A stretch of DNA of 64,000 bases from Bolinopsis microptera (Eukaryota > Ctenophora > Tentaculata > Lobata > Bolinopsidae): positions 3,291,246 to 3,355,245 of the forward strand of contig NC_087081.1 in assembly GCF_026151205.1 (NCBI RefSeq). Direction: 5' to 3'. The notes beneath the pieces are model-generated. The model saw nothing but the letters and a program-made list of their open reading frames with translations, made no database searches and was not told the origin of the DNA. Positions 42,041-47,097 of the stretch are shown piece after piece (the stretch's first letter is position 1; every line of letters starts with the position of its first letter). A program made the position numbers and the translations under genes.

Positions 42041-42973
42041 TTTACCACCCTACGCGCGTGGGGTGGACTCCTGGGGTGGACTTTTATTCAGCGCGTATTT
42101 TGTAGCCTGTTCAACTTGACGTTTTGATTCGTTACTATCTCAATGTCACAGATACACAGAATGTGAGGTGATCATCTTAAAGAGAAACGTCTCAGCTTTC
42201 ACCTGGTGTAAAGTTTATCTTTGAACTCAAAATATAGCTCGCTCAGTGTGCAATAGAAGTTGACAATACAATAACCACGTCTGCGACCGGTCGTCAGATA
42301 CCGGAGTGTTGCACAAAATTGGGTACCTAAATTAAAATTCTATGACACAGTTACCATGCAGAAATGTCTGGAGTAACATTTGGTGAAAATTTGAAGGGTC
42401 TACTGTAAATATTGCAAAAGTTATTGAAAACAAACTAGCTTAATCAGAAGTTTTTGGGAAAATTTCAAATTTTGTACGTAGTGGGGTCTACAGGGGTGGA
42501 CTCTTGCGGCGCGCATCTGACGGAGTGGCTTTTTCAACAGCCGTCAGTACGGCCAATATCAGAGCACAAATTATTGTGAGTAAGACCTTAATGATCAGCT
42601 ATGAACCCCTCACTAGAGTAGTAACCGTATCTAAAAACAAGGAAATGTTATTCCGTCAAAGCTCAAATTTTTTACTCTTCTCAGTGCAGTTAGTGTTACT
42701 ATGAATGTACTAGCTAAGTATCGTTGATCGTAGCTGCATTACACAGTAGAAAGTAACCAAGGAAGACTGCTGATTAACGAAGCAATTTCAACGTGAACAG
42801 TTCCAAAATACATAATCATGGCGACGATAGTTCAACTTGAACCTTTATAGTTTTTACAGTCTAAAATCACAATAAAATCACGTGAACTGCAAATCACAAA
42901 ATCAAATCACTCAAATCTGATAGTCCCGTTACAGTACGCTTTCGTGACAACCTCAACGCTTAAAAAATAAATA

Positions 42974-43169
42974 TTATCCAGTCTTGTGACCACCGATGGC
43001 CCTAACTCTCCCTTGTCCGCGAGGAGCATCGTTGCGACCATGGGGTTTCAGTTCTTTGTTCTTCCCACTCGGCTTCGATAGATCGAATTGGCTGGAAGTC
43101 AATCTATCAGAAAGACCTTTGTCGATCTCAGGGGCGTGGTAAATTGTGGATGTCGGAGTATAAAGCTTC
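42974..43169 (-). CDS. Possible additional 3' exon of the ankyrin gene
   Basis: A strong acceptor (CTCAATCTTTTCAG) opens a frame that runs 65 codons to TAA: LYTPTSTIYHAPEIDKGLSD ... KPSGKNKELKPHGRND. It needs a phase-2 donor upstream, which the 43,425-43,582 exon does not supply. It is either 3' UTR, an alternative end, or the true end of a gene frameshifted upstream. Confidence 0.4.
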
Positions 43170-43424
43170 CTGAAAAGATTGAGACATTCACTCGGTCTGT
43201 TGTAAATATCAAATAGTCCTTGTAGGCAGAGATTTAACTTATGTTGGGTTTGATAACTAGAGAAGGCGATTTGATATTCATTGATAGTATAAGCATATAA
43301 GCATAAGTGATAAGTTTATATACCCTTTTTATGGTACCTCGAGGCTCGATATCTGTATTCAGTAATCATCACTCAAAATCTACTTATTAAATTTATTAAC
43401 TAAACAAGTTAATGTATTACCGTC

Positions 43425-45807
43425 CTAGAGAGGTTTCCTGAGAATTTGAAGTCTCTGTAGGTTGCTGGCATGTCTACTAAGCTCTTCGATTGAGGAGTTT
43501 TGGACCCCTCGGCGGTCCAAATGATTTATAATGCTGTGGGCATTTTCAACATCTATCGAGGTAAACGCCCTCGCAGCATAACCTGTAGAGAATGAACATG
43601 TCATCAATGTGAAGTTCAATGATAAAAATCAGAGTGGCCGATTTCAACGGGCAGAATTCTAATATCATGGCCATGGGGAATGGACTATTTTTTGTCGATT
43701 TTGCAAACCAAACTGGCAAACGATTGTTGATTTTCGTCACTAGTCTAAAATGAATGCAAACGTTCGGCCGAACATTTACATGATTAGAAACTTACCGGTT
43801 TCTTTCGTTATTATGTACAGACATGGCCGGGCTTGGGTTCCGCATACGATATCTTCTATCAGATTAAAGTTGAACCCACACTTTGTACTGCTCGTGGGAG
43901 GAGGAAAGCAAACGGAGACCTTTTCCATGAGCATCTCGTGTAGTACCATCATCATGTCGATTCTGATATCAGCTGCAAAATTCGTCTATTACTAAATGCT
44001 AGCTTTTCGAACTTCGTATCTTGGAAATAACAACTTCTATGAAAGAACACACACACACACACACACACACACACACACACACACACACACACACACACAC
44101 ACACACACACACACACACACACACACACACACACACACACACACACACACACACACACACACACACACACACACACACACACACACACACACACACACAC
44201 ACACACACACACACACACACACACACACACACACACACACACACACACACACACACACACACACACACACACACACACACACACACACACACACACACAC
44301 ACACACACACACAGACAGATACACACACCCACAAACACATACAGACATAGACACACACACACAGAGACACAGACATACAGGCATACAGGCATAAACACAG
44401 ACACAGACGGACACACAGACAGACACACAGACAGACACAGTTACACACAGACAAGGACACACAGACACACACCCACAAACACATACAGACATAGACACAC
44501 AGACACAGGCATAAACACAGACACACACAGACACAGACGGACACACAGACAGACACAGTACACACAGACACACACAGCAACACACACAGACACACACACA
44601 TAAACACACATAGTTCACTTCAGTGCACTACATTACAATTACAGACACACGCAGTACAATCAGAGACACACACACGATACAAAGACAGACACAGACACAA
44701 ACACACAGAGTACACTTCAGTACAATCACAGACGCAGGCACAAAGACATATACAAGAAGAGCAGATTGAAGTACCTTCATTTGCAGATGTTGACGCATTG
44801 ATCTGTGGGATATGTTCTTCAGTCTGTAACTGATCATCTGCTAGAACTGTCTCATCTGGATCAACCGGAGGAGTATCTTCCGGCAGGAGTCTGAGTGGGT
44901 CTATCGGGACAGCCATGGATCGCTCTCCCTACCTTGTTGAATTAAAGACAAAGGTCAACGACGGATGTCGCATGTTAGTCCTGTAACTAAATGTAATCCA
45001 AAATAGTGAATAAATAATTTTTACATCTGAACGATTGTATGTCTAAATGGTGATTTTTAATCAATGAACAAAAGTTCAGGATTTTACCTTCTGTTAAGCT
45101 GTTAGCAATGACTCTAGCACCCTCTCCCTACAAAACGACCATATCTCGGTCTGAAGCTTTAAACCGTCTTGCCTCAGCAGCCATCTAGCACAGTCGACCT
45201 GTCCTGTTAATTGTGTGATCATCAAGTTACCAAATTTAATCCTTCAATATTCAAATAATTGATTATTAGACAAAACAGAGTTTAGAGCTCGACGTATGCT
45301 TCAGGGTTTCACACTGTGCTGTTATCAAACGCATGACTAAAACCTCTTGCTACTATTACCAATAAACCCATATTGTTAAGGCGGTCGAATGATTTACCTG
45401 AGTTGATCGCGTCCATGAAAGGGTTAAACTGCGTTCTGTCCAGCTTGTTAATGTCCGTTCCAGCAGCCAGCAGTGCCTCCGCCTCCGTCACTCTCCCTGC
45501 TTTGCATGGCCAGTGAAGCGTAGAGCTCCCCTCTAAGCTCTTTGACGATCCGACGAAGGATCCAGATTCCCTTCTTTTCTTTTGAGATTGCTTCAATTCT
45601 TCCTGGAGTATGCGGATTACCATTTATATACTTCCATACAGGGCGCGTGAACAATCAGCAATGAATTATCAATTAATCAATCTAGTTTTTGAGTAGAAAG
45701 TCCACAGATTGTGATACATTGGATTTGATATTGGAAAAGACATAGCTTACCAAATACCTTTTCATGGGCTTTTTGGAGGACAGGGATGACTTATTCCTGC
45801 GTGCCAT
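43425..45807 (-). CDS. Ankyrin-repeat protein, 6 exons, 277 aa model
   Basis: Exons (minus strand): 45,751-45,807 (ATG); 45,398-45,602; 45,121-45,203; 44,775-44,928; 43,796-43,972; 43,425-43,582 (TAG). The sum is 834 nt and all phases agree; donors include GTAAGC, GTAAAT and GTAAGT. A basic Lys/Ser-rich N-terminus (1-45) is followed by about two ankyrin repeats ([40 protein letters not shown]), then an acidic Pro-rich linker ([11 protein letters not shown]). The C-terminal region ([19 protein letters not shown] ... [13 protein letters not shown]) was not recognised. Ankyrin repeats bind other proteins; no specific role can be given. Weak points are the GTGCTA donor of exon 3, the acceptor of exon 4 (AACAAGGTAG) and the 3' end. 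The gene lies wholly between the inverted arms at 42,046 and 47,092. Confidence 0.6.
44046..44313. repeat. CA dinucleotide microsatellite, about 134 units
   Basis: Uninterrupted AC/CA run in an intron of the ankyrin gene, about 74 bp from the acceptor of the exon at 43,796-43,972 (GT-rich on the transcribed-sense strand). Degenerate CACAGACAGA tracts continue to about 44,730. The 150-200 residue Cys-Val and Thr-His ORFs are by-products. Confidence 0.98.
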
Positions 45808-45999
45808 TACACCATAACTATCTGCTGTAACAGCAAAAATTAGAATTATGTCGGACATAATTCTAAAAAATTGGAACATCGTAGTTAATCAGTGTGGTGC
45901 TAACAACAGAGAGCGATTTGAACGGTAGGCAATTTCATAAATTCCATTAACGCGATATAAGGATGATTGGAACAGGCTAAAATCTACTATGTAGCATTG

Positions 46000-46700
46000 A
46001 TAACTGGCTATATCGCTGCATTAAACGATAAAAGTATTGCTAACTATGGATATTCTAAGTGATCTAGGCAGAGGGGAACCGGCACAGCCAGATTGCGTTG
46101 TCTTCAGTGACTAAGTTTCACGATAGTAAAATTGACCTTATTTATTTTTAAAAAGGATGCACAGTTCAAGCAATAAATCGATCAGCTGCTCATATGATAT
46201 TTGCATTTAAAGGAGGGCCCAGTGCAGTGACAAGTAAGTCTGTTAAGGCAACATTCAGTTCTGAGATTAGCTGAGTCTTGACAAAGATAAGTTGAGTTTC
46301 GAGAAAGTGCACACGGATAAAGTTATCAAGTGAAAATGATAAGACTAAGTTAGGGTCCAGTCAACAGAATGGCAGCTGTAACAGAAACAGTTCATTGGAT
46401 AGGAGAGTAGGGGATTATGACGGAGTGAAGTTTATATAGCAGGGCAAACAAAAAACAACTGACAGCACTGAGCAAGTGAACTGGAAAATTGAGGAAGGGA
46501 AATAACTGTGGTTGTCAGCCCTTTCCGTAGCAATCAGGATTTCCCAGGAGATCGATCAGGCAATCAGGATTTCCCACGAGACTGCTCCATCCGATGCGCG
46601 CACTTTTGTCACGTGACGGCCACGTGACGCTCAAATCGTTGTCACGTGGTACAGAAGAGAGGTTCCTAGAGCGTTGATCTCGACAAGAGGGAGTTTCTCA
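46000..46700. other. Region upstream of the ankyrin gene with CACGTG motifs
   Basis: GTCACGTGAC at 46,608 is followed by CACGTGAC at 46,621 and GTCACGTGG near 46,641. These E-box type sites lie about 800 bp upstream of the ankyrin ATG. They could be regulatory, but the same palindrome also occurs inside repeats elsewhere in the window. Confidence 0.3.
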
Positions 46701-47097
46701 CGGTTTATCTTCAATAACTATCGCTATTTTTATAGTAGAGAGTTGAAACTTTCACCAAATGTTTCCCTAGACATTTCTGCATGGTAACTGTGTCATAGAA
46801 TTTTAATTTAGGGACCCAATTTTGTGCAACACTCCGGTATCTGACGACCGGTCGCAGACGTGGTTATTGTATTGTCAACTTCTATTGCACACTGAGCGAG
46901 CTATATTTTGAGTACAAAGATAAACTTTACACCAGGTGAAAGCTGAGACGTTTCTCTTTAAGATGATCACCTCACATTCTGTGTATCTGTGACATTGAGA
47001 TAGTAACGAATCAAAACGTCAAGTTGAACAGGCTACAAAATACGCGCTGAATAAAAGTCCACCCCAGGAGTCCACCCCACGCGCGTAGGGTGTTTAC

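Follow-up and report, generated by a model that had tools for sequence, protein, structure and literature searches.

Ds of the Ac/Ds system is the textbook non-autonomous derivative, by internal deletion, of a DNA transposon with terminal inverted repeats (TIRs). CAC termini are a feature of Transib and ProtoRAG elements, Polintons (Mavericks) are approximately 15 kb at full length, and a D-x2-H motif plus a late glutamate are features of several DDE transposase superfamilies. As set out in three published reports, Transibs generate 5-bp target duplications, with 13-bp TIRs in the Transib described there (PMC4411706); the hAT families with 5-bp duplications are designated hAT5, and the Transib/CMC motif consists of C(2)C and H(3-4)H between the second D and the last E (PMC12730594); Ginger2/TDD elements have TIRs and duplications of 4 or 5 bp (PMC2836005). 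Here we describe an element with long TIRs and a spliced ankyrin gene at positions 42046-47092 of a 64,000-nucleotide stretch of the Bolinopsis microptera genome (the window; G000:C10:3291246-3355245), and compare it with the whole assembly (264.65 Mb, 232 contigs). The element is very probably a non-autonomous deletion derivative of an ankyrin-encoding TIR DNA transposon, presumably mobilised in trans.

Structure of the window element

The two arms of the element (42046-42435 on the plus strand and 46703-47092 on the minus strand) are 390 nt each and 96% complementary without gaps, in agreement with the first-pass annotation of this DNA, which had noted inverted arms of about 390 bp with matching ends. 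Both arms were delimited by repeat comparison, and the left one, which starts with CACCCTACGCGCGTGGGGTGGACTCC, also by matching its ends genome-wide. Both termini are CACCCTACG, read inward as CACCCTACGCGCG... The pentamer TTTAC, also reported before, stands on both outer sides (42041-42045 and 47093-47097), and its assignment as the left and right copies of a target site duplication is based on the sequence and on a family-wide comparison of 5-mers. A subterminal block similar to the TIR end (GGGGTGGACTCTTG...) was found at 42477-42518 on the plus strand by direct and inverted repeat comparison.

Copies, target duplications and an empty site

The 26-nt end of this family (family 1), searched with up to two mismatches, occurs 62 times in forward and 60 times in reverse orientation in the assembly (122 ends). 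These matches are not due to chance because a control pattern gave 0/0. Among the 100 ends listed, 88 form 44 pairs and 12 are without a listed partner; 43 pairs are spaced 4.6-7.1 kb and one 17.8 kb. As far as seen, the arms do not occur widely as solo short elements, the finding that the first-pass annotation had named as speaking against a mobile unit. Copy length varies mainly through a CA tract and nested insertions, the surplus of the longer copies being nested insertions or simple repeats. The 17.8-kb pair (C12:3795152-3812932) has the gene spacing of the short form, and its extra length is probably made up of large nested insertions.

Of the approximately 61 units, 41 were examined: 38 paired units, two whose second end was otherwise known, and the window unit. 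The flanking 5-mers are identical in 41 of these 41, a count that applies to units chosen for both ends being known and not to unpaired ends, and a 6-bp match is found in none (0/41); when the left 5-mer of one unit is set against the right 5-mer of another, 66 of 1640 combinations agree. The duplications have T at position 2 in 35 cases and A at position 4 in 39 (n = 41), giving an AT-rich target consensus, NTWAN, which fits 33 of them. An empty site exists as a paralogous site for a sister copy, L037, whose tandem neighbour carries a single TTAAT and matches at 93 of 108 positions without gaps. For L017, a 97% paralogous site is off by 2 bp, and the exact-join pattern had 0 matches. Fixed-end TIRs in many copies, the constant 5-bp duplication and the L037 empty site are the characteristics of a TIR DNA transposon, and they support the mobile long-TIR unit, flanked by a 5-bp duplication, that had been proposed for the window. 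The element in L017 was inserted in a palindromic repeat, another copy of which lies beside the unit in L051 (L051:98-264).

The interior is common to the examined copies, in 40 of them lengthwise (small deletions aside) and in L016 in the left half. When the CA tract was left out, the copies sorted into subfamily A (23 copies including that of the window, 0.38% pairwise divergence on average) and subfamily B (17 copies, 1.1%), which differ from each other by 3.35%; L016 was left out of this sorting of the 41 units. Its right half is approximately 70% identical to the others, and we rejected it as a third subfamily: this copy has 143 homopolymer runs of at least 5 nt vs 18-39 in the other 40 copies, and because of this excess we read the right half as unpolished sequence. 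Such a stretch within an otherwise normal unit is a warning about assembly quality. Three units (L049, L050 and L051, with duplications attac, tataa and tttaa) are 82-86% identical to the window copy over all or half of the length; in view of transition/transversion values of ~0.55-0.64 and patchy divergence, they were dropped as age markers. The ankyrin exon is present approximately 60 times in the genome, with 58 matches (counted by hand, part of them fetched, and one of them on C21, described below) covering no fewer than 65 of 70 residues at a minimum of 89%, and two fragmented copies.

A full-length copy and the internal deletion

C21:23233-38206 is a 14,974-bp element that has family-1 ends and is flanked by an ATTAA duplication of its own. 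The ankyrin and C-terminal exons of the window copy recur in it (ankyrin exon at 25444-25653, C-terminal matches at 36305-36832), together with nearly 10 kb that is absent from the window copy and contains exons of a putative transposase-like protein.

The deletion can be located from two pieces of C21. In L059, exons 3 and 4 are homologous and open, and a TG-rich intron follows exon 4 as in the window; the left side of the deletion is within this common intron. L055 contains further exons, including DYTH...HDARGIT. The 67 bp at its end recur without a difference at window 43978-44044, immediately upstream of exon 5, which places the right breakpoint at window 44044/44045 (L055:2934). The 2,930 bp leading up to this breakpoint have one full match in the assembly, C21 itself, the other 18 matches being pieces of 54-75 bp. 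Because the ends, the exons and the flanking intron pieces are common to C21, removal of nearly 10 kb from the long form would yield the short one: the window copy has both ends and the interior of C21 without the internal segment. In this assembly, one full-length copy was found vs approximately 60 short ones.

The ankyrin gene in the short copies

The gene of the window copy is on the minus strand and consists of seven exon-like blocks (45807-42974). The spliced ankyrin gene of the first-pass annotation is thus present, but it had been counted as six exons and its frame is broken. The block e1 (45751-45807), taken from exon reading and comparison of subfamilies A and B, contains the first ATG, and e2 (45398-45602) encodes an ankyrin repeat (Pfam Ank_2, E = 1.4e-7). 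Copy comparison shows that e3 (45088-45203), also an ankyrin repeat, is 8 bp longer than in C21 and closed by TAA, and that the acceptor of e4 (44775-44935) is altered in 21 of 41 copies including that of the window. According to the C21 comparison, the deletion junction, where nearly 10 kb of C21 is absent, falls in a CA/TG-rich tract that occupies 44045-44770. The tract is followed by e5 (43796-43972), next to the 67 bp identical to C21, by e6 (43425-43582), which has homologues in a second family (family 2, see below) and on C21, and by e7 (42974-43169; KLYTPTS...GGHKTG, then a stop), which is the C-terminal part of the element protein and lies within a tblastn match to the family-2 locus L052. 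Splice phases, read by eye in the window copy, agree between e1 and e2, e2 and e3, e4 and e5, and e5 and e6.

By the same reading, continuity of the frame is lost at three points: within exon 3, at the acceptor of exon 4 and where e6 should join e7. Relative to C21, exon 3 carries the 8-bp insertion in 39 of 41 copies (L016 and L048 are unreadable there), which indicates one founder for the short copies. The e4 acceptor is altered in 21 copies; 17 have the C21 type, one is intermediate, and in two it was not located (n = 41). Exon 3 of subfamily B contains an additional stop beyond the closure common to A and B. The exon differences between A and B comprise 17 non-synonymous or stop-changing and 4 synonymous changes (hand count), and on these grounds we rejected an argument for function from purifying selection. 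In the short copies, the ankyrin gene is degenerate and most likely a decaying leftover.

These features bear on the possibility that the short elements are autonomous and that the small ankyrin protein itself drives transposition. The gene block is kept in the 41 examined copies and none of the 44 listed end pairs is closer than 4.6 kb, which speaks for it, whereas the exon 3 stop in A and B with the extra stop in B, the e4 acceptor altered in 21 of 41 copies, the out-of-frame e6 and e7, and the mostly non-synonymous exon changes all argue against a working protein. We regard autonomy of the short copies as extremely unlikely.

Comparisons of the e4-e6 protein with two PDB chains (E = 0.15 and 0.89) and of e7 with Med6 (E = 0.3) were at chance level and were not used. 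Close matches to the window exons were in no case shown outside a family-1 unit among the part of the matches that was fetched. L053 (C7) was rejected as a host parent gene, being a 35% generic ankyrin match only.

A second family encoding a related protein

A genome search with the e5-e6 protein led to C9:5976407, and in the surrounding locus (L052) the C-terminal stretch of the window protein was matched (tblastn, 32%, 6e-9) behind ankyrin repeats and a middle part. This locus belongs to a family-2 element at C9:5970179-5977984 (L054 and L052), which is 7,806 bp long, has a 27-bp TIR with the ends CACCCCGGCG / CACCCCAGCG and CACCC termini, and is flanked by AATGA on both sides. The end pattern of this element was matched at 78 places with varied spacing, 35 in forward and 43 in reverse orientation (control 0). 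Families 1 and 2 differ in TIR length and end sequence and have CACCC and the 5-bp duplication in common. At C12:4341820-4341887, a family-1 end and a family-2 end are 17 bp apart with the elements pointing away from each other, representing neighbouring insertions. The family-2 element also has a C2H2 zinc-finger-like open reading frame (ORF), recognised by eye, at positions 2648-3013 of the element on the other strand.

The middle of the family-2 protein matches C21:35578-35841, between the ankyrin exon and the C-terminal matches of C21, and the two proteins, from hand-joined exons, are colinear and 33% identical, with DYTH and GYAARA..SIDVEN kept; DxxH (DYTH) and DVEN are thus conserved between the families. 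The DYTH motif and the late E recall the DDE superfamilies, from which we infer that the protein is a transposase. The ankyrin repeats of family 2 match ankyrin chains in phmmer (best E = 4e-7, among the best 60 of 151 matches). By eye, the ankyrin parts of both families are in the same position and have a similarly placed intron, and their Smith-Waterman score of 53 was reached by 0 of 1000 shuffles; specific homology between them is weak. Relatives of the protein are multi-copy in the assembly, with further members at C1:16452577, C1:13916147, C2:6355464, C3:2797971, C3:14544132, C8:12035403 and C11:5925130. A search of viral contigs with the C-terminal exon confirmed none. In the literature searched at the level of titles and abstract openings, none names an ankyrin-bearing transposase, which is no claim of absence in print.

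Origin of the gene

The first-pass annotation had taken the gene for a spliced cellular gene carried by the unit, a reading that finds no support here. Because the same gene is inside the 15-kb C21 element and a homologue is inside a family-2 TIR element, it most likely belongs to the transposon lineage and is most likely not a captured host gene.

Several observations weigh against the derivation of the short copies from a transposon that encodes this protein. C21 differs from both subfamilies by 18-19 mismatches per 520 bp on average and is therefore the nearest full-length relative found, not the exact parent; it lies on a small contig (81.7 kb), and only 4.1 of its 15.0 kb was read. The read exons of the C21 and family-2 proteins matched no Pfam family up to E = 10, a Pfam scan of the family-2 protein with part of the ankyrin stretch gave no family, and a two-sequence profile of both proteins matched no PDB chain up to E = 10. 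BLASTP gave no match between the ankyrin parts of the two families, and both parts align better with a generic ankyrin consensus (57 and 71) than with one another (53). Between A and B, 21 of 1055 exon sites have changed vs 81 of 2466 non-exon sites, a mild exon conservation on which we do not rely.

Some of these points are shared by the alternative that a host ankyrin gene was captured long ago, either by a common progenitor of the two families or by each separately, and that an unrelated transposase moves the elements. The gene is spliced and ankyrin-bearing and has no Pfam transposase domain in its read part, which is the limited portion of C21 given above, and among its relatives complete TIR elements are established for L052 and C21, the loci checked for ends. 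However, the gene is present in both families, whose TIRs are unlike in length and terminal sequence but which have CACCC and the 5-bp duplication in common. Moreover, what was read of C21, the sole family-1 copy of full length, contains this gene and no other recognisable transposase, its relatives are multi-copy, and the DxxH and DVEN motifs kept between the families are reminiscent of DDE enzymes. Taken together, the capture of a host gene as cargo appears improbable.

Proposed spread of the short copies

For a gene that belongs to the transposon itself, the full-length form may contain either a single long gene of many exons or a pair of neighbouring genes on the same strand, with ankyrin repeats towards the N terminus of the protein and a transposase-like part towards its C terminus. 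One founder copy most likely lost nearly 10 kb between the TG-rich intron and the intron before exon 5, a deletion that took out the middle of the gene and left both ends in place. This founder would then have spread to approximately 60 copies in subfamilies A and B, most likely through the protein of the full-length element acting in trans on the common ends. The protein would most likely bind these ends, with the subterminal GGGGTGGACT repeats as candidate binding sites, and would excise the short copies and reinsert them with a 5-bp stagger in AT-rich targets, in a presumed cut-and-paste mode.

A supposed gene-carrying mobile unit thus becomes a pair of master and derivative, in which one 15-kb copy may supply the enzyme for approximately 60 substrates of 5 kb. 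Many of the short copies are nearly identical, as in subfamily A, so that recent mobilisation in trans is directly testable. The transposon-linked ankyrin protein has a conserved C-terminal part that is recognised by neither Pfam nor PDB searches, and annotation pipelines could count the short copies as a host family of ankyrin genes.

Other features of the window

A tandem direct duplication of 2.1 kb with 94% identity is located at 14113-18278, and a tandem array of ~170-bp units with inverted halves at 48663-51338, with similar pieces at 53012-53299 and 63922-64000. By eye, long ORFs at 4799-7366 (minus strand), 21900-22877 (plus) and 51659-53017 (minus) resemble non-LTR reverse transcriptases, an exon at 28550-29074 (plus) resembles a voltage-gated channel, and a fragment at 35936-36559 (minus) resembles a MULE transposase.

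Comparison with known systems

Like Transib and ProtoRAG elements, family 1 has CAC at its ends and a 5-bp duplication; unlike them, it has AT-rich NTWAN targets, 390-bp TIRs and ankyrin repeats. Kinship with them, raised by the first-pass annotation, is not supported beyond the CAC ends and the duplication length. The RAG1 model (PF12940) had matches on C2 and C3 and none on C21, in an exon-wise search that a heavily split gene could escape. RAG1-like open frames above the Pfam cut-off are at C2:19700416-19701534 and C3:4783511-4784548. An assignment to a Transib/ProtoRAG-type or CMC-like element would be consistent with the CAC ends and with the 5-bp duplications of Transibs (PMC4411706), and by eye both proteins have an H(3-4)H pair. 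This pair, however, is just behind the DVEN glutamate and not before the conserved E, and no C(2)C was seen by eye in the aligned read exons of C21 and family 2, in contrast to the motif as given in PMC12730594. With the RAG1 matches being on C2 and C3 rather than C21 and no PDB match for the protein, we consider this assignment very improbable.

Family 1 has the 5-bp duplication of hAT5, whereas no hAT Pfam domain was found up to E = 10 in the read exons of the C21 and family-2 proteins. Its TIRs and duplication length are in the range of Ginger2/TDD, but the read exons have no integrase Pfam match and the ends differ. Polintons (Mavericks) resemble it in the long TIRs and in the full length of about 15 kb seen in C21; the family-1 gene, unlike theirs, is spliced, and DNA polymerase B (PF03175) was matched at 20 places in the genome, none on C21. 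These PF03175 frames (C1, C3, C5-C11 and C13), several of which are open for 1,245-1,261 aa, are presumably of the kind found in Polintons. Families 1 and 2 may possibly represent an unclassified DNA transposon superfamily. Its transposase would bear ankyrin repeats towards the N terminus, its elements would end in CACCC and duplicate 5 bp of target (NTWAN in family 1), and this genome would contain two or more of its families, with a single remaining full-length master of approximately 60 recent derivatives; we put this forward tentatively, as somewhat doubtful.

The closest parallel to the window element itself is found in Ds-type derivatives. Unlike these, the window family is 5 kb long, keeps many exon blocks, has its deletion point in a CA/TG tract and is accompanied in this assembly by one full-length copy found vs approximately 60 short ones. 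Like them, it has the ends of a rarer full-length element, an internal deletion, a broken gene and a higher copy number.

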